Origin: Mytilus galloprovincialis
Taxonomy: Eukaryota > Mollusca > Bivalvia > Mytilida > Mytilidae
Reading direction: 5' to 3'
DNA: 64,000 nt
NCBI RefSeq assembly: GCF_965363235.1
Contig: NC_134851.1
Coordinates: 20,550,347-20,614,346, forward strand
A program made the position numbers and the translations under genes. Under the pieces are notes generated by a model, which was not told where the DNA came from, did not search any database, and saw only the letters and a program-made list of their open reading frames with translations. How positions within the stretch are numbered: the stretch's first letter is position 1; every line of letters begins with the position of its first letter. This document shows, in pieces, positions 401-15,400 of this stretch.

Positions 401-3400
401 ATGGATGCTGAGGAAAAGAAAAGGATTAAAGAAATTATGAGAGATAAAGAGTAAGATACAATTTTGTTGTGATTATCTTTGAAATTTATGACATTATTCA
501 ACATTTGTATAAAATTGAGAATGGAAATGAGGAATGTGTTAAAGAGACAACAATCTGATCAAAGAGCAGAAAATATTGGAAGGCCACCAATGGGTCTTCA
601 ACACAGCGAGAAAATCCAGCACTCAGAGGCATGCTTCAGGTGGCCCCTAAACAAAAATGTGTACTAGTTCAGTGATAATGGACATCATCATGATCATACT
701 TACCTCCAAAATAGGTTAATGAACTAAAATAAAAAATCATACATGACTAACAAAGGCAAGAAGCTCCTGCAAAAATGTGGTGAGGATAAACATGATAAAC
801 ATGTTTTGAGAGATCTCAATCTTCCCTCTATACCTCAAGCCAATGTAGAAAAAACAAACACACAGTAATAAACACTTACAGTAAAACTCAAGTTTAAAAG
901 AAGCAAGAGTGAAATGTCAGAATAGGTAACAAAAGAAACTCAACAAAATGACAAAGTGAATCAATATTAAAGCCAAAATATACCATCTTTAAAGACCTTA
1001 CAACATTATCGTAACTACATGTATATTAATATCATGTACAAATGTATAAGGGTCCAAATATTATCATGTGGTTATATGTCTAATTGGCTAAGAGTTCTAG
1101 GGTGCACTGAACACAGTGCAGGCCAAAATTCCAAGGTCTCACTCAGAAGACGTACAAGCAAGGGTTGTACAAGCAAGGGTTGAAGTCCTGTTTACCAAAT
1201 TCAAATACAGAATGACTTTTGGCTTCATTGGTGCAGGTTTACATATTAAAACTATTATGGCATGCCTTCTGACCATTGCTGACATAAGAAAAACATGGGA
1301 ATTCTAAAATACCAATTAAATTTGTTTGTAATAATCACCTTTTACCACTGAAAATATTAAAATCATGATTATCACAATGTATCATGATTATGCATTACAT
1401 TTTTTCACATTATTGCAGAATTTTTTTAAAGGGTTGTCCCCTTCAGATTTAGAATATAATTTACAGGTATATATTTCTTGATAGTGTTTGAATATAGAAA
1501 AAATCACTACGATTAAAATAAATTGTTTTGTTTCTTTTAAGTAAAACAGAAGAAAAGTTACAATGGATGTACAAGGGAGACAGGCCAGAAATGGAGGAAT
1601 ATCTTCTCGGAAAAAGAATAGACAGACATATTGAAAAAGATGATAAACCTCCTGGTTAGGGTTTTCTGTTTCTAGAAATTTGATTTTTTCCTTACTGTAG
1701 ATTTTTTGTTCCCGTGTCCAAATTTTAGAAGATCTAGGGAAAATTATATTTTGGTAGATATTTGTCTTTGAGTCCAGACTTTTTTACAAATAGATATAGG
1801 AAGATGTTATGTGAGTGCCAATGAGACAACTCTCCATCCAAATAACATTTAAAAAAGTAAACCATCATAGGTCAATGTACGGCCGTCTGCATTCTGTAGA
1901 TTCATTTACTTTCATGAACACCAATTTTGTGGATAAGGTACATGATTTTGAAGACATAAAATCATGTACGGTATCCAGGAAAATTGGTGTTCATGATTTT
2001 GTGGCTTTGCCAAAAGTCTGCAGCAATTGCAACCTGATAGAAATTTGAAATTCGTTGAAATTTAAGTTTGTGGAAACACATGAAAAATGGTATCAACCCA
2101 ATAATAGAAATTCCAAGAACATGTCATACGTCACTATAGAATAAGATTTTTTTTTGTTTTTTTAAAATGTTGTAAATGAAAGGATTAATAAAGACATCAT
2201 TAGGACATTTCAGAAGGGGAAAGTTTTGCTATATGTTTTTATTTATTCCAGTATTGCAAAGAGATATTTTACTGAAGCCATTAGGTTTCACAGAAATGAA
2301 GATTTTTAGAACTTGCCTTTTTAACCGGATTTTTGTGACAAAAATGTCGGTTATTGATTTGGGAATGTACGGCGGCCAGGCGGTCGGGCGGGCGGCAATC
2401 AAATGTTGTCCGTGCATTAACTCATGAACCGTTCAACCAAAGCTTTTAAAATTTTAATATGTTGTTACTGACAACTAAATGAAGGTCAAGTTCAATAATG
2501 GCGATTTTGACTTTTACCGTTCAGGAGTTATGGTTCTTGAAAGATTGAAAAATGGAGTTTTCAGTCGTGTCCGTGCATTTACGCATGAACTGTTCTACCA
2601 AAGCTTCCCAAATTTTAATATGTTGTTACTGATGACAAAATGGAGGTCAAGTTCAATAATGACGATTTTGACTTTTACCATTCAGGAGTTATGGTTCTTG
2701 AAAGATTGAAAAATGGTGTTTCCAGTCGTGTCCGTGCATTTTCTCATGAACCATTCAACCAAAGCTTTTCAAATTTTAATATATTGTTACTGATGACAAA
2801 ATAGAGGTCAAGTTCAATAATGACGATTTTGACTTTTACCGTTCAGGAGTTATGGTTCTTGAAAGATCGTAAAATGGCGTTTCCAGTCGTGTCTGTGCAT
2901 TTACGCGCATGAACTGTTCTACTAAAGCTTCCCAAATTTTAATATGTTGTTACTGATGACAAAATGGAGGTCAAGTTCAATAATGACGATTTTGACTTTT
3001 ACCGTTCAGGAGTTATGGTTCTTGAAAGATTGAAAAATGGTGTTTCCAGTCGTGTCCGTGCATTTTCTCATGAACCATTCAACCAAAGCTTGTCAAATTT
3101 TAATATGTTGTTACTGATGACAAAATAGAGGTCAAGTTCAATAATGACGATTTTGACTTTTACAGTTCAGGAGTTATGGTTCTTGAAAGATCGTAAAATG
3201 GTGTTTCCATTCACATTGTTGCATTTACTCACGAACCATTCAATCTTAGCTTTTCAAATTTTAATATGTTGATACTTATGACAAAATGGAGGTCAAATTT
3301 GATATTGATGATTTTGGTTCTTGTGATATTGCCAGGACACAAATAAATGTTAATAAATCCGGTTTGCTGTCGTTGTGACAGCCTCTTGTTATTTTTGATA

Positions 3401-6400
3401 GCAATAATTGCTTGTGGCATTTCCTGATAGTTTTGTTTTTGGATGGAAGTTTCAATAATTAAAATGCACACGAACCATTCTTAAGTTAAAGTATGTCATC
3501 TTGTAAATACAAGCTCCTGCAGATATGATAGTCTCTTAAGAACAATATTTGCAATATGAAGTTTGAACAGTTACCAGGTTACCTTTTCATGTCATTGTTT
3601 TACATTTATTATTTTATTTTCACTTTCAGATGATGTTGCAATATTTGCAGAGCGTATACAAGCTAACATTGCCTTGGACATGGCTGCTAAGGCAAGAGAA
3701 GATCCATTATTTGCAATCAGGTTGGTGAATAACTGTTCAAAGTTAAATGTAATTGTACATAATGGTAATCTTTAAATGGATGGTGGTCAGTAGTTTTTCA
3801 TGCATTATCTGTTGTTGTTAACAGATTCTATCTAAAAAGGATCAATAGTTGCAGGGGAGCTAACTATTATCACAAGAAAAGAGTTCTGGGCGAAATAACT
3901 GATAAAATAGGAAAAGAGTTGCGGGGGAAATAACTGATAACATAAGAAAAAAGTTGTGGGGAAATAACTGATAACATAAGAAAAGAGTTGTGGGGGATAT
4001 AACTGATAACATAAGAAAAGAGTTGCGGGGGAAATAACTGATAGCATAAGAAAAAAGTTGCAGGGGAAATAACTGATAACACAAGAAAAGAGTTGCTGGG
4101 GAGATAACTTTTAACAAATTATCATGCTGCTTTAAGGTCAATCAAAATCAAATAAAAAGTAAAAGATTAAAGTTTAAATTTTAAAAGCATCTATCAAATA
4201 TTTTCAGTATTTCTGTAAATTAGAATAACAAAAAAATCTGTAAATTGTTATTTTTAACCTCAAGGTTTTTTCCATTATTCAACAGCACAGTAATAAATAG
4301 ATGCAAACATTTATGAATTTACAGTATTGGCATTTAGTAATTCTGTCCTTTTTTAGGCAAAAAGAAGAAGATGTGAAGAGAAGACTTTTAGACAATCCAA
4401 TGAAAATGAAAAGATTACAGAAACAGGTATGATTTTTTAACAAGATTTCCACTGGTAAAATCGGTTAATTTTGTGGTGATGTACTCAGGGTTTTCGCTGG
4501 CGGTCGCCATTGTCGCAATTTGCGAAAAAATAATAATTGTGGCGATAAAAAATTCTTTGGCGAAAGAAATATTTATAACGATTTATTTCCTCCATCTTGT
4601 TTATTTACTTTTTTCGAGTTTCTCGGACTTTACCCGATCAGACAATACTCGGAATTCACCTTGACCTCATTAAGATTTGGACAGAAAATCAATAATCAGC
4701 TGATTGCATTTTATAGCTATCGAAATAAAGGTGTTGATTGTATTGTTTGAAAAAATGATATGGTTAAATGACTTCCGCTAAATGTCACATACATAATCTA
4801 TTTACCACTTTGCGACGCACGTGTTTGAAGCTAGCTTTTGACGTCTCCTCTCCTATTAAAGATAGTTTAGAAAAGAAAGCTGTTGTTGTGACGAAAAATG
4901 TTCAAAAGCAAGAAAAATCTCCGATTTAAAACTTTAATTATCCTTTGACTTTAATATAGGTAATTGCTTAGGGAGTCTACTCGACTACTGTAAAGTCGTG
5001 ACACACGTGTTTCAAGCATAAAATTACGTCTCCAACTTTTTCATTTACGATGGTCAAGGAAAGAAAACTGTCCAAAAGGTTGGGAACAATCCCTCGAATG
5101 AGAGTAACCCTTCAATGTAATGACTACACATGAAATGAGGGATCAATTTCATGTGTTAAAAGCTTTTGTTTTGTTGTAAAAAACACTTCTTAGCTAGTAC
5201 AAAAGGGCACATCAGTATTTTTCTTTTAAAGAAACTTTCCCAACGAACTATACTGGTATTATATGATCAAAACATGTCCATGAATTTTGTTATATTCCAA
5301 GACTTATATCTTCTTTATTATTAAAAGTATAGTGGCCCCTCATTTAGAAAAGTTGTTTAAAATACAATGAATATTTTTCCCTTAAGTTAAAAAAAAATCT
5401 GTTTTTTTACAGTAAATCTTTAGTGTTTATTCATTAAAATGTAGACTCTAAAATAAGTTTGAGAGAATAATTATAGACACAATGGCGCGAAATCATCTTT
5501 TTTAAGGGAAGTGGGGGGGGGGGGGGGGACTAGAAAAAAAGGTAAATTTTAAGCGAAAAATATATTTATGTTACGTGGCGAAAAATATATTGTTTTGGCG
5601 AAAGAGGTGGCGAAAAAAATAATTGACCCAGGGGAAACCCTGGATGTACTGCTGCCAAACATTGACCGTAAATTTACTTCTGATCCATACCTTTTCAAAT
5701 TTTGAAATGAATGACAAAATGGAGGTCATGTTTGATATTGACAAATATCACTTTCACCGTTCAGGAGTTATGGTTCTTGAAAGATTGAAAAATGGTCTTT
5801 CCAGTCATGTTCATGCTTTTACTCATGAACTGTTCAACCAAAACTTTTCAAATTTCAATATATTGTTACTGGTGACAAAATGGATGTTAAGTTTAATATT
5901 GATTATTTTCACTTTTACCATTCAGGAGTTATGGTCCTTGTGTTATTGAAAAATGCAAGGACACAAATAAATGTTAAAAAATCTAGTTTGCTGTCACTCT
6001 GACGGTCTATTAACACAAATATCCCAACATTAGAATAATATTAAAGTTTTCTAATTGTAAATGTTCTGTTTTTAAAGCTTGAAGATAGAAAGAAGAAATC
6101 TAAAAAGAAAGATAAATCAGATTCTGACGATGAACTGATCAGCATGTACCTATCAATTCTCAGTCAGAAAGAGAAATCTCACAAAAAGAATAAAAAGCAT
6201 AAAAAGAAGAGTAGTGATGATTCAGATGAAGAAGATTCTTCATCAAGACATTCTAGAAAACACAAACACAAGCACAGCAAGGACCATGATGATTATGAAA
6301 GTAAACACAGACATGAATCAGATTCAGAGAAACATTTTGACAGCAGAATGAAGTACAAACAAGAAAATTATCGAAGTTCAAACAGTGATAGAAAAGACAA

Positions 6401-9400
6401 TAGAAGAATGGACAGAGATAGAAAATCAGAAAGTAGGAAACATAGACATGATTCTTCATCGGATGATGACCCTCGTCATAAAAGAAAACACAGACATGAC
6501 TCTTCTGATGAAGATTCATCAAGACTTTCTCATCATCGTCATAACAAAGCTGAAAAGCACAGAGACAGTTATAAACATGAAAAACATACAAAAGACAATG
6601 AATTCAGTCACAGACAAAAAGATAATACAGATAGACATAAAAAGCATAAAGGTCATGATAAGGTTAGAGATTCAGAATCTGAAGAAGAGCCAATCAGAAA
6701 GCGACATGATTCAGGGTCAGGAGAGGAGAAAGTTGTTCCTGTTGCAAGAAAATATGGACTTATAGTAAGTGGAGAATTAGGAAATTTATTACAAAATAGT
6801 ATTACCAAAAATATGGAACTCCTAGGTAATTTCATAGAGGGGTTGGTCGATAAAACCTGATAAAATAAAACCCTCAACTACATGTATATCAACCAACGGT
6901 AGAAGAATGAAAAAAAACAACTGTCATATTCCTGACTTGATACAAGCATTTTGTCAAGAAAATGTTGGTTACACCTGGTTTTATAGCTAGCTAAACATTC
7001 CACTTGTTTGAGAGTTGTAAAGTTGGGTTATTGACAATATTTGTTGAGCAACTTGAACTCTTAAATGGGCATAATTAGTTATAAAGTGACAATAATAAGG
7101 ATACTTGTGATATAGCAGCCAAAACAGACAACATAAATATACAACACAGCTGGCTTAAAAATTGAAACAAACATACAAATAAATTTGACAAAGAGGTCAA
7201 CAAAAGATTTGTTGTTGCTAATAGTAAATGCAGTATAGGGGTGATTTTAGTGTGTTCAAATGTGTCTGTTAATTTGTTAATAAAGAATAGTTTCTTTTTA
7301 ATACAAAATATTTAGGTAATAACATTGAACTACATGTAGATTGACCCCATTTTCTAATAGCACATTTTAAAGTCTATCTGGTTATATTCTATTTTAAAAT
7401 TCCATTATTTAGTTTTCCCTATATTCAGAAAAGTCTTTTTTTCAGGTACTAGTCTGTTCCTTAAACAATCTGATAATTTTACACTATCAGTATCTTGAAT
7501 AAAATGTTTAATGATATGATTTAAGAAACTGAAGCAGACACCAGATGATGAAGCAGCTAAAAGAAAGAGATCAAGATCTCCAAAGAAACACAGATCTAGA
7601 TCACCAGTCCAAAAACCCAAATCAACATATAATAAAGCTGATTTTAAGCCAAGGTATGGTTACTCAATATCCCTTCTGCCCGGGTACAAATGTATAAATC
7701 ATTTTTATACGACCGCAAAATTTGAAAAAATTTTCGTCGTATATTGCTATCACGTTGGCGTCGTCGTCTGCGTCGTCGTCGTCGTCGTCCGAATACTTTT
7801 AGTTTTCGCACTCTAACTTTAGTAAAAGTGAATGGAAATCTATGAAATTTTAACACAAGGTTTATGACCACAAAAGGAAGGTTGGTATTGATTTTGGGAG
7901 TTTTGGTCCCAACATTTTAGGAATTAGGGGCCAAAAAGGGCCCAAATAAGCATTTTCCTGGTTTTCGCACTATAACTTTAGTTTAAGTTAATAGAAATCT
8001 ATGAAATTTTGACACAAGGTTTATGACCACAAAAGAACGGTTGGGATTGATTTTGGGAGTTTTGGTTTCAACAGTTTAGGAATTAGGGGCCAAAAAAGGG
8101 CCCAAATAAGCATTATTCTTGGTTTTCGCACAATAACTTTAGTTTAAGTAAATAGAAATCAATGAAATTTAAACACAATGTTAATGACTACAAAAGGAAG
8201 GTTGGTATTGATTTTGGGAGTTTAGGTCCCAACAGTTTAGGAATTAGGGGCCAAAAAGGGACCCAAATAAGCATTTTTCTTGGTTTTCGCACCATAACGT
8301 TAGTATAAGTAAATAGAAATCTATGAAATTTAAACACAAGGTTTATGACCATAAAAGGAAGGTTGGTATTGATTTTGGGAGTTTTGGTCCCAACAGAATA
8401 AGGGGCCCAAAGGGTCCAAAATTAAACTTTGTTTGATTTCATCAAAATTGAATACTTGGGGTTCTTTGATATGCGGAATCTAACTGTCATGACTGTGTAT
8501 GTAGATTCTTAACTTTTGGTCCCGTTTTCTAATTGGTCTACATTAAGGTCCAAAGGGTCCAAAATTAAACTTAGTTTGATTAAAATTAAACTTAGTTTGA
8601 TTTTGACAAAAAATGAATCAGTTAGGTTCTTTGATATGCTAAATCTAAAAATGTACTTAGATTCTTGATTATTGGCCCAGTTTTCAAGTTGGTCCAAATC
8701 GGGGTCCAAAAATAAACTTTGTTTGATTTCATCAAAAATTGAATAAATGGGGTTCTTTGATATACCAAATCTAACTGTGTATGTAGATTCTTCATTTTTG
8801 GTCCTGTTTTCAAATTGGTCTACACTAAAGTCCAAAGGGTCCAAAATTAAACTTAGTCTGATTTTAACAAAAATTGAAATCTTTGGGTTCTTTGATATGC
8901 TGAATCCAAAAATGTACCTAGATTTTTTATTATGGGCCCAGTTTTCAAGTTGGTCCAAATCAGGATCTAAAATTATTATATTAAGTATTGTGCAATAGCA
9001 AGTCTTTTCAATTGCACAGTATTGCGCAATGGTAAGAAATATCTAATTGCACAATATTGTGAAATAGCAAATTTTTTTTAATTAGAGTTATCTTTCTTTG
9101 TCCAGAATAGTAAGCAAGAAATATCTAATTGCAAAATATTGTGCAATAGCAAGATTTTTTTTTAATTGGAGTTATCTTTCTTTGTCCAAAATCAACTTAA
9201 ATCTTTGTTATATACAATATACAATGTATATTCACTTTTTACTACCAACTGATAAATTAAAATAATCTTTACCATTCAGTGATAACAAGCAGTTTTTTTA
9301 CATCTTAATATTTTATGATGTATTTAAATGAGTAGTTATTGTTGCAAACTCCATTAGAAATTTTAATTGAGATTAGTTTTGGAATAAGGGAAAGGGGGAT

Positions 9401-12400
9401 GTGATTAAAAAAATTGGGTTCAATTTTTCTCATTTGAAATTTCATAAATAAAAAAGAAAATTTCTTCAAACATTTTTTTGAGAGGATTAATATTCAGCAG
9501 CATAGTGAATTGCTCTAAGAGAAAACAAAAATTTTAAGTTCATTAGAACACATTCATTCTGTGTCAGAAACCTATGCTGTGTCAACTATTTAATCACAAT
9601 CCAAATTTAGAGCTGAATCCACCTTGAATGTTGTGTCCATACTTGCCCCAACTGTTCAGGGTTCAACCTCTGCGGTCGTATAAAGCTACGCCCTGCGGAG
9701 CATCTGGTTTATTTTTAATATAGGATTTCGCTATATATTTTTCTATAAATGAACTTTATCTTATGCTCAAAATAAAAATAAAATAAAAAAATTGGGTCAC
9801 AGTTCATTTTAGCTCACAATTTGCCTTCAAAAGAAGCATACATTTTTGTAAAGGTACTTATTTTCTGTTGAACTAGTAGGAGAAAAAAAGGTATCAAAAT
9901 AAAAAAAGAACTAAAATACAGAAATCGCTCAAATTTTACAATAGTTTAGTTTTAGTACAGCTTATTTGAAAATAATAATAAAAATATAGGTCACTGATGA
10001 GTTAAAAAAGATATTACAATTATAATGCCAAAAAATGGCATTTTTCATCAAAGGGAGATAATTTTGAGATTTTTCAGTGATATATATATACATTTATATT
10101 TGCAAAGTTGAAAATACTATGAGTTTCTCTAATTTAATGAACAGCAAAGATAAATTTGTTCTTGTTGGCGTAGCCAAGTTCTGTAAAATTAGAATGTCAA
10201 TTTACAAATGATATTTACCTTCCTACTTATTCATGCATTTGTAAAAATGTTTTTTCATGCATTATATCTTATTTGTTATATTGTTGTACTATCATGCCTC
10301 ATGTGAAGCCTTTAGTGAAATTAAATGTTTCATGTTTCAAATGTTAAAAGTCATCTGGGGCCAAAATGAATTGATTTTTCTGGATGATTTTTGTACCATA
10401 TGATAAAGTAACAGCTAATAAAGTAATAAATTAAATTTGTACTGAAAAAAAAAAATGTTTAATTTTTTTCTGAAATTTTTATACCCTGGAGCCTCCTTCA
10501 CTCTGATCCAATCTGTTATTCATTTTGACAGTGGAATTCATGTTTCATCATATGATTGAAAGTGCTTAATTGCATTTTTTTTAACATCAAATTAAAGTTT
10601 CACCATTAGCATGATTAGTGAGATGTTAATTGTTTAATAGTTGCTGACCACGTCAACAATTGTTAAGGTTTCTGCCTGACTCTGTCTGATAAGAACCACT
10701 TGTAATACATCAATGATACACAAAATTAAGCTGCCCTAAAATCATTACATATCTGTTTGTTGACTATTTCCAGGACCTGACCCCTAGGTCATGGGCCAGC
10801 TAAGGTCCAGTTACTTTGAATTAATAAGAAATGTTGTTGTCCTTCAGCATTCAGAATGTCTTTTTTTAAATTTTCTGCAAATAGGCAAGATATATGATAT
10901 TATCTTGAGCTCTGTTTCAACAGTTTATTACTTTAACAGACTTTGGAACATGCCATCACACATTTGCCTTTGGCTGCACCTTAGGCCACAGGGGGGTAAC
11001 TTTGATATTTTTTTGGTAGGGTTGTGCCATTTTTGCCTAAAAAAACGTACCCATTTTAATATAACATTCACAGAAATTCAGTACCTATAGTTATATAAAT
11101 ATTTAAGAAAGAATGATCTATACTTATATACAATATTTAAAATATGACCTATGCTTATGTAAGCACTAACTCATCATCACTCATAATTCATAAATATACC
11201 AGCTACCCTTAAGTTTTTATATATGAATTGACATCGTTTGGTGCACATATATTTTATATGATATGTAGATCATACCCCAAATCAATATACAGTTATCAAA
11301 CGTAAATGCATTTTAATATAGGATGTCATTAAAAAGGAGGGTCATTTTTATATAAAATCTCGCAAAATTATGACCCATATTTTTGGCACATCCCCGTATA
11401 CCCAATAATAGGAAGTTACCCCTCCCCTCCCCCGTGCCTTAGGCACAGATGGCTAATTTTGATTTTCAAATTAATTTTATTTCATAATTATTGCAGGAAT
11501 ATTTTGTCACAATTTAAATATAAAGTGGAAGAGAGAAAGAAAATATAATGGCTAAAAAGAAAAAAAAGAAAAATAACAGTCTTCAAAACATAATCTACAT
11601 ATATACACTAACCAAAAAGGGTTCCCACCTAGGGGCATAATGGTTTTTGGTCTTTGCATTCATTCATCAGTCTATTCATAGAAAATGATAGTACGAGTGA
11701 GCCATCTGTGTAATATGGACACATTTTTATATATCACAGTGATGCATGACCTAATTTTTTGATTTTTATGTTTAGAAAACTTACAGAAGAAGAGAAGAAG
11801 AAAAAGTTAGAGGAAATGATGGATAATGTTAAATGGAGAGATGATAATAGGACGAAGAACGTGAAGAGATATAATGAGGACGAGAAAAGAGAAAAGGAAG
11901 CAAGATCAAAATCACATGAAAAAGGATTCTTAAAGTAAGTGATACATTACTAATCACTGTGTCTAAACCACACCGGCAAAATTTGTTCGGACTCGATGGT
12001 ATCTAACATCCGGCACAATGACGGAAAATTAATAGACAGAAGAAAGCTAGGTTTCTCCTTATTTTCTTATTTTTTTTATGATATCGAAGAATATAAATAC
12101 ACATACAACTATTTTCTATTGTGATATGCAATATTTTCTACAACCGTTCTATATTAATGGAAAAATAAGTAAAAATGCACGTCAAAATGACGAATTGAGT
12201 GAACCTTGCCTCGAAATTGTTTAATTTCTCTTTAAATTGTTCACATTGTACGGAAAGAAAGGTACGGGAAGATAGATATTGACACGGAGATTGCAAATTT
12301 AGTTATTATGGGCATCTCAATAATTGTAACTCTGTGTATGGAATGAAAGAAATGGGTCATGTCAAAATGGAACTGGCCGGTTTCGTCAATGTATACAACC

Positions 12401-15400
12401 CGGTTTCGTCGTAGATTTCAAAATGCATAACCCGGTTTGGTCAAATAAAAAAAATCATAATCGCATTACATTATAATTGATTATTTAACTTCAGCGTTCA
12501 AAATGAGTTTTGTGGGTCGTTCGAAAACAAGTTCGTTCACCGGACAGCGGCTTATTATTAATATGAGTCTCAGATTCAAATAAATAATAAGCAAATTCCT
12601 ACTCTTATAGAACACAAATATTTTAATTTTACTTTGCATTCCGAACTTCTTTAACAGCATATTGAGATTAAAGCTCTCTAAATATGCGTTTTCTATATGA
12701 GTTATGGGAAAATATGTTGAACATGTTTAAACTTGAAATTGAAGTTTACGGTCTTAAAAATCGAAACACACAATTGATATGTGATTTTCTCGCACAAAAG
12801 AATGGACACCTTTATAAGTAATCTAATCATTCCATGTATGTAATCTTTTCTACCATCGTTAAAAATAAATCTTCTTAAGGATAAACGTTGATAATAAGAC
12901 AAACGTATATGCATGCATAATCGACATAGAAAATGAATGTAGGATTACAACTACCATGCATTAAAATAAAATTTATTTATCACTAATTGTAACTATACTG
13001 CTATGTACAAATTAGTATAATAGTCTCAGGTCATCGATAAAATTCAATAATAATTATTTTGTTAACATTATTAAAAAAACCGAGTCTGTACTGTCGCCAT
13101 TGTGTTATGATGATCGTACACTGACGTTGGTCAATATATTTTGACAATATATACGGACAGACGGATTCAGTTTATTTCAAAGTGGGCGTATTTCGAACAA
13201 CCTTTACATACCGCCGAGCGTAGCGAGTCGAACAATATTTTGATTATTTTTTGCTTTACAAAATCGTTAAATACAGGAATCAATATAGTTTTGGCAACCG
13301 AAGGTGGGGTCGGGGCGTGCAACCTATACGTCATCTAGATTCGCCACTTATCTTATAAAGTGTATACCGAATTAAAATATTGTAAGAAATGAGAAAACAG
13401 GGACACCCGGGAAATCGGATTATGTGAGTTGGATTATGTTTATTATAATAAATGCCGAATATCAAGTTCTTTTTATCGATTTCTATACATTTTTCTCAAA
13501 TATATATAAAAGTTATATAGGAAAATGATAAGGCAGACAAATATACAAATAAATCGACTTGGCCGATATCCTAATAAAACTTATTGACCTTTAATTACGA
13601 TTTTTTTTTTTCATTTCTTTGCGTTTTTTCACGCCCGTCCCAATTTTGACAGGACGTGTTATTGTATACACCCGTCTGTCCGTCCGTCCTTCCATCCGTC
13701 CGTTCCTCCATCTATCAGTCATTCGGTCCGTCCGTCTAGCTATCCGTCTATCTTTATGTCCAGCGTAAACATGTCGCACCGTAACTTGAGCTTATCTAGT
13801 TTTCATGAAACTTAACACAGTTATTTCTTGAAATGGTCACACGATTTGTAAACCTTTTAGTGAAAATCAAATTAAATCTTTTTGAGTTACAGAACTTTGT
13901 AAGTAAAACAGGAGTGTGTTTTTTGTTAACATGTCGCGCCATATCTCAAAATGATTTATCATTATTGCATCAAACTTTACACACTTCTTAGTAATATAAA
14001 TCTTAACTTCTGCATACTTTATGGTGATGTTTTAAATTTTGTTTTTTAAGCGTTAATTAGGTTTTCTTTGTAAAAAAAAAAAGGGGGGGTCACATACTGC
14101 GATGTATCTCAAAACCTATATAAAAAAAATATCATAATGTTAATGTTAAAAAAATAATTAGATATCAGTGTTTGCTATTGAGTATTTATATTCCATTTAA
14201 AATTAGTTTGAAGATCAGTGAAATAACGGATACGACTTTCATTAGGAAAATGTGTAGTACTATAATTACCTATGTAAATAAATGTAAACACGCCAAGTTT
14301 ACTTTATAATACATATATATTTAATTTCTTTCGAAAGACAATGTTCAGATCCGTGTTAACGTTGCTTTTCATTAATTGTTGGTTTTAAAAAAATATAAAA
14401 AACCGGGTGATATATATAGACGAAACCGGGTGTTGTGTAGTAAACAACAATGACGAAACCGGTGTATTTTTATTTGACATGACCTATTTCTTTCGTTCCA
14501 TACACATAAATACAAGTATTGAGATGCTCATAATGACTAGTTTTGCAATCTCTGTGTCAGTATCTATCTTCCCGTACCTTTCTTTCCGTACAATGTGAAC
14601 AATTTAAAGAGAAATTAAACAATTTCGAGGCAAGGTTCACTCAATTCGTCATTTTGACATGCATTTTGACTTATTTCTCCGTTAATATAGAACGGTTGTA
14701 GAAAATATTGCATATCACAATAGAAAATAGTTGTTTATGTATATATATTCTTCGATATCATTAAAAAAATAAGAAAATAAGGAGAAACCTATCTTTCTTC
14801 TGTCTATTGATGTTCCGTCATTGTGCCGGATGTTAGATACCATCGAGTCCGATCAAATTCTGCCGGTGTGGTTTAGACACAGTGCTAATGCCGGAATTGA
14901 ATTTGAATGGTGTTTCTTTCAGTGTTCTCGAGTTATGTCCCTTTATAAATGGAATAGTTGCTGAATTTGCAGTTTTTGCATGTAGTGTCAAAGAAAACAA
15001 AGTTTCAATAGGTTTGAATTGGTACATAAACTCTTACTCATTTACAAACTGAACAAATTCTTTTTTTAATTTTTATGCCCATGCTGTAGTAGAGAGGGCA
15101 TTAAGTTTTACCCTTGTTTCCACTGGACATTTAGCAACCAGGAATCAATCTTTTAATTTTTTATTATGCCCCACCTACGATAGTAGAGGGGCATTATGTT
15201 TTCTGGTTTGTGCGTCTGTTCGTCCGTCCGTCCGTCCGTCTGTTCGTTCGTTCGTCTGTCTGTCCCGCTTCAGGTTAAAGTTTTTGGTCAAGGTAGTTTT
15301 TGATGAAGTTGAAGTCCAATCAACTTGAAACTTAGTATACATGTGCCCTATGATATGATCTTATTTAAATGCCAAATTAGAGTTTTGACCCCAATTTTAC

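Follow-up and report, generated by a model that had tools for sequence, protein, structure and literature searches.

A high-copy, non-autonomous DNA transposon with CAC ends, long inverted arms and 5-bp target-site duplications in Mytilus galloprovincialis

Background

The described systems that come closest to the element reported here are the Transib and RAG-like transposons, the wider CMCT clade, which includes EnSpm/CACTA, Mirage, Chapaev and Transib, and the hAT5 group; they are cited below by PMC number. The Transib elements hopper and transib2 make 5-bp duplications at the target motif CCANTGG (PMC3276498), and a CCAGG duplication is given for a Transib relative (PMC4411706). Protostome RAG-like (RAGL) transposons have the consensus end CACTWMCAAACKTYKBB and duplications that are invariably 5 bp long (PMC7204232), whilst ProtoRAG has the tip CACTATG, and GC-leaning duplications are common to ProtoRAG, Transib and RAG (PMC8289069). 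The vertebrate recombination signal sequence has the heptamer CACAGTG and the nonamer ACAAAAACC (PMC8289069). The ends of CMCT lineages are mostly 5'-CA..TG-3' and their duplications 2-5 bp long, and hAT elements with 5-bp duplications, the hAT5 group, also exist (PMC12730594, the latter citing Kapitonov and Jurka 2007). Here we describe a 2,930-bp transposon copy at positions 11955-14884 of a 64,000-nt stretch of the Mytilus galloprovincialis genome (assembly GCF_965363235.1, contig NC_134851.1, forward strand positions 20,550,347 to 20,614,346), hereafter the window, and compare it with these systems.

Results and discussion

A repeated element with inverted arms and constant duplications

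The window copy has the tips CACTGTG...CACAGTG and lies between two copies of CTAAT (11950-11954 and 14885-14889, both annotated on the + strand), such that 11950-14889 reads CTAAT-CACTGTGTCTAAACC...GGTTTAGACACAGTG-CTAAT. Without gaps, the arms at 11955-12392 and 14447-14884 are 92% complementary over 438 nt; with gaps, the alignment of arm to arm extends to around 478 bases (element positions 2453-2930 against the opposite end, as in copies L049 and L055). Hence the inverted arms and exact flanking repeats proposed by a sequence-only reading of this locus are present where it had placed them.

Searching the 1.38-Gb genome with the 23-bp tip, at up to two mismatches, found 288 forward and 312 reverse matches, compared with none for the reversed-pattern control; these 600 tips correspond to a family of roughly 300 elements. 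Among the tip positions listed, which lie on contigs C1-C7, 65 pairs could be formed, around 235 further pairs falling outside this list. Leaving unpaired tips aside, these pairs span between 562 bp and 10,885 bp (median 3,439 bp), and eight are at least 5 kb long. In the shortest, at C3:87779708-87780269, opposite tips are just 562 bp apart, probably representing a miniature or a rearranged copy.

An exact 5-bp duplication was found directly outside the tips in 30 of 32 complete copies, all of them picked for intact or nearly intact tips, and the remaining two match at four of the five bases. This sample comprises the window copy, 12 tip pairs in loci L009-L038 and 19 in L039-L058, the L057 copy being excluded as one of its ends is missing. 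Copies L043 and L044 were counted as a single insertion owing to their common flanks, leaving 29 independent exact duplications. These two copies, found at 131.64 Mb and 131.89 Mb on C1, are 98.8% alike and 254 kb apart, with identical flanks of 15 bp plus; they represent either a segmental duplication or an assembly duplicate. A chance inverted repeat, or an artefact of assembly, is refuted as an explanation for the window element by the 600 tips found against none in the control and by the 30 exact duplications.

Some copies are closely similar to that in the window: L047 is 99.1% identical to it over 2,932 bp, and L038 is 99.4% identical over 1,523 bp, although more divergent copies drop to 70-80% in places. 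As some copies are around 99% alike, the transposon has moved recently.

Absence of recognised coding capacity, including in long copies

In the window copy, no overlapping frame exceeds 81 aa from stop to stop, and neither the six of its frames that were tested nor three frames of copy L051 had a Pfam match at the cut-off; the interior, at 12443-14396, is accordingly annotated as non-coding. Repeated copies, inverted ends, a constant duplication length and no visible coding capacity together make it close to certain that this is a high-copy, non-autonomous cut-and-paste DNA transposon. The sequence-only reading had likewise proposed a non-autonomous element, and had named CAC ends with 5-bp duplications in most copies as support.

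The longer copies were considered as potential autonomous elements, an idea rejected for those that were read. Of the twenty regions read, eight (L039-L046) hold a tip pair of 4.8-8.0 kb, L047 contains two shorter ones, and the other 11 (L048-L058) start at tips with no listed partner; the 4.8-kb pair at C2:35339512-35344278 and three of the longer pairs on C4 and C5 lay outside this set. The regions read consist of the common core with inserts or a variable interior, which account for their length, and none has a recognised transposase of the element's own; in alignments between copies, matches to the core resume past the gaps. Insert frames in L046 resemble reverse transcriptase by eye, though Pfam gave them no name, and in the 10.9-kb copy on C3 (L063) the middle holds a frame that, by eye only, looks like a Gypsy-type reverse transcriptase, flanked by pieces of common core. 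The same insert of around 2.07 kb, with GCGTCACACTGTCCCGA-like ends, is present in opposite orientations at L043:2144-4208 and L045:5156-7227, two different sites in the element; it has perhaps inserted at TTAA. Extra sequence also occurs in several other copies at the point matching 13448/13449 (element position 1494/1495), a site of variable length.

Comparison with Transib and RAG-like transposons

The ends suggested to the sequence-only reading that a RAG- or Transib-like enzyme moves this element, in which case the gene encoding it would have been lost, have diverged too far to be recognised, or be missing from the assembly. The tip CACTGTG differs from the heptamer CACAGTG (PMC8289069) only at the central base, and the 5-bp duplications that are the rule here are likewise the rule in Transib (PMC3276498) and protostome RAGL (PMC7204232), bearing in mind that the copies compared were selected by tip. 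RAGL transposons are also known in molluscs, with non-autonomous copies described in an oyster (PMC7204232). Beyond CACT, however, nothing of the protostome RAGL consensus start CACTWMCAAAC fits in register: positions 8-10 are TCT, rather than the AAA of the consensus, and AAA occurs instead at 11-13. A nonamer equivalent to ACAAAAACC is absent, by eye, after both 12 and 23 bases, where positions 20-28 read CGGCAAAAT and 31-39 read GTTCGGACT; the lack of such a motif had been noted from the outset as a point against a RAG-type end. A survey of molluscs identified one Transib element (PMC10294476).

The target sites also differ from those of these systems. The 29 independent duplications are 81% A+T (117 of 145 bases), against 68% in the window and loci (p about 0.001). 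This agrees with the earlier remark that CTAAT is not GC-rich, and is opposite to the published bias of Transib, ProtoRAG and RAG. A pyrimidine stands immediately before the duplication in 24 of the 29 cases and a purine immediately after it in 17, representing at most a weak preference at the flanking positions. Transib arms are short, and those of the window element are far longer.

No Transib- or RAG1-like protein, which the sequence-only reading had named as further support, was found in a relative of the element. The RAG1 profile PF12940 gave no candidates across the whole genome, although the control genomes were empty too; nevertheless, it should detect a RAG1L protein, because one RAG1 sequence by itself already connects with the RAG1L chain 6b40 (E value 1.1e-77). 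A 244-aa query for the catalytic half of Transib, matching HzTransib (6PQN) at an E value of 1.2e-84, had no match in the genome at E<=10 (one candidate scored), and neither did a 55-aa Transib motif query yield anything; like the RAG1 profile, these searches lacked a positive control of their own. In the same mode as the Transib query, however, part of Mos1 found 116 sequences at E<=10; 16 of these reached E<=0.001, as weak matches with identities of 24-43%, and the profile searches return both hAT and CACTA-type (PF02992) transposases from this genome. In 8,762 open segments from a subset of the loci, phmmer found no pieces of RAG1 or Transib (E<=10).

Since these same search modes detect hAT, CACTA-type and Mos1-like sequences, the assembly probably contains no recognisable Transib or RAG1-like gene, though one may have been lost, have diverged strongly or lie in unassembled sequence. 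The youth of the family weighs further against this reading, as the enzyme should then be recent. The original proposal hence holds for the ends and the length of the duplication, but not for the protein or the target bias: the link to RAG and Transib consists of seven bases and a duplication length, without the protein, and we regard it as possible but rather unlikely.

Candidate enzymes in the genome

The favoured interpretation, which we hold to be slightly on the probable side, is that this same non-autonomous transposon is mobilised by a DDE transposase of the CMCT group, of which Transib is itself a member. Such an enzyme, belonging to the broad group with CAC...GTG ends, would be encoded elsewhere, bind the near-identical ends and cut beside the terminal CAC; the joining of both ends to the target with a 5-nt stagger would then generate the 5-bp duplications observed. 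The element shares its CAC...GTG ends with EnSpm/CACTA-Mirage-Chapaev (CMC) transposons, and long open transposase frames of this type are present in the genome: of 58 candidates scored with PF02992, 49 matched, many of them within open frames 485-1006 aa long. These matches include sets of equal frame length and score (e.g. 1006 aa on C7, C10 and C14), which suggests that CACTA-type elements may have been active recently. Because such frames are present and a recognisable Transib or RAG1 is not, an EnSpm/Chapaev-type enzyme is likelier than a Transib/RAG-like one, and is our best single guess, although a tentative one that falls somewhat short of being probable.

Several observations count against a CMCT enzyme. 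CACTA elements proper make duplications of 2-4 bp, and the 5 bp found here are hence unusual outside Transib, even though the range for the wider CMCT group is 2-5 bp. Amongst the copies read, no element with these tips encodes any transposase, nor is a partner evident elsewhere, as no other family has the exact 15-bp tip: the search for a sister family sharing it gave just six matches, either variants of the family or chance, compared with two for the reversed control. None of the 49 CACTA-type matches, only 18 of which are on C1-C7, falls inside the 65 listed tip pairs, the nearest being 0.5 Mb away. Nor did the 1 kb upstream of one CACTA-type element, read in search of its start, contain such a tip.

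An alternative is that the element is a non-autonomous member of the hAT5 group, with which it shares the 5-bp duplication. Elements of the hAT superfamily are abundant in this genome, the profile giving 638 candidates, of which 150 were scored and all matched, with several open frames of 500-852 aa. However, the tips of hAT elements follow the rule Y-A-R-N-G, which is broken here by the C at position 3, and none of the 86 hAT matches on C1-C7, out of the 150, lies within the 65 listed pairs, the nearest being 38 kb distant. Absence from these pairs decides against neither CACTA nor hAT, because contigs C1-C7 hold just 18 of the 49 CACTA-type matches and around 235 pairs are unlisted. We consider a hAT5 origin unlikely, to about the same extent as a Transib/RAG-like one.

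The alternative offered by the sequence-only reading was a new group with CAC ends and long arms. A lineage outside the superfamilies considered, combining CAC ends with long arms and 5-bp duplications, would account for the failure of every family examined to explain the tips, the arm length, the duplication length and the AT-biased target together, as well as for the absence of a partner among the 65 tip pairs. The missing partner is nevertheless weak evidence, given that 20 copies were read through, others in part, and around 235 pairs are unlisted; an enzyme of some such other type is, again, unlikely. The 15-bp tip was not found in the PMC text that could be searched, and topical searches of the literature listed nothing matching.

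A second family with CAC ends

Copy L055 carries a 5,608-bp insert at 3185-8792 that is itself a transposon-like element, with the tips CACCGTGTATC and, as checked in this one copy, a TTCAT duplication on both sides. With the first 316 bases of this insert as query, 656 candidates were returned genome-wide; the 40 that were scored all match at 93-100%, and its end is sharp since all 40 matches start at query base 1 or 2. The nested element shares with the window element a CAC-N-GTG-T tip, the 5-bp duplication (in one copy) and a high copy number, but differs in having an inverted repeat of only around 11 bp, a length of 5.6 kb and an unrelated interior. It was rejected as the coding partner, ten of its frames having no domain match at the cut-off.

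The CACCGTG tips and 5-bp duplication of this second element are in keeping with a Transib- or RAG-like enzyme. More generally, two unrelated families with CAC-N-GTG-T tips and 5-bp duplications favour one type of enzyme with these habits, though two is few. A bolder reading is that both are moved by an undescribed lineage that recognises CAC ends, cuts with a 5-bp stagger, prefers AT-rich targets and, in one family, has long arms, being related to but distinct from Transib and RAG; we think this improbable, more so than any of the individual enzyme types discussed above.

As it stands, the window element is one more unclassified transposon family in a large genome, of an ordinary class but with ends in an uncommon combination. 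Its hundreds of copies, many of them young and with exact 5-bp duplications, nevertheless form a clean data set for the end and target preferences of the enzyme. Should a coding partner be found and prove to be related to RAG or Transib, this would add a long-armed, AT-targeting lineage beside the ancestor of V(D)J recombination.

Structure of the arms and surroundings of the window copy

The left terminal inverted repeat, with the tip CACTGTGTCTAAACCACACCGGC, was placed at 11955-12442 on the + strand, and the right, ending in CACAGTG, at 14397-14884 on the - strand, on the basis of the sequence and the inverted-repeat alignment. An alignment of 67 arms shows them to be similar until around position 450 and divergent beyond it, with the conservation of the first 23 positions in part reflecting the choice of copies by the tip query. 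Three motifs resembling CCGGTTTCGTC had been reported in each arm. That count is a little too high. In the left arm (+ strand), exact copies at 12377-12387 and 12400-12410 are followed by CCGGTTTGGTC, with one mismatch, at 12432-12442; in the right arm, as judged by eye, the two at 14419-14429 and 14452-14462 are exact, but the third, at 14396-14406, matches at just 8 of 11 bases. As specially conserved binding sites these motifs were rejected, as 63%, 40% and 97%, respectively, of the 11-mers in the arm are at least as conserved: the first two, with conservation of 0.929 and 0.948, are ordinary for the arm, and the third, at 0.681, is among its least conserved 11-mers.

The interior holds three degenerate copies of a 23-nt sequence at 13769-14114, spaced by 160 and 163 bases, and an Rfam search of the window gave no matches. 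Immediately upstream of the element, in the region 11777-11954, is a putative exon (KLTEEEKKKKLEEMMDNVKW...). Its peptide may resemble CWC25, but had no Pfam match at the cut-off. The GTAAGT donor of this exon, at 11935, lies 20 bases before the element, which would place the insertion at the beginning of an intron.

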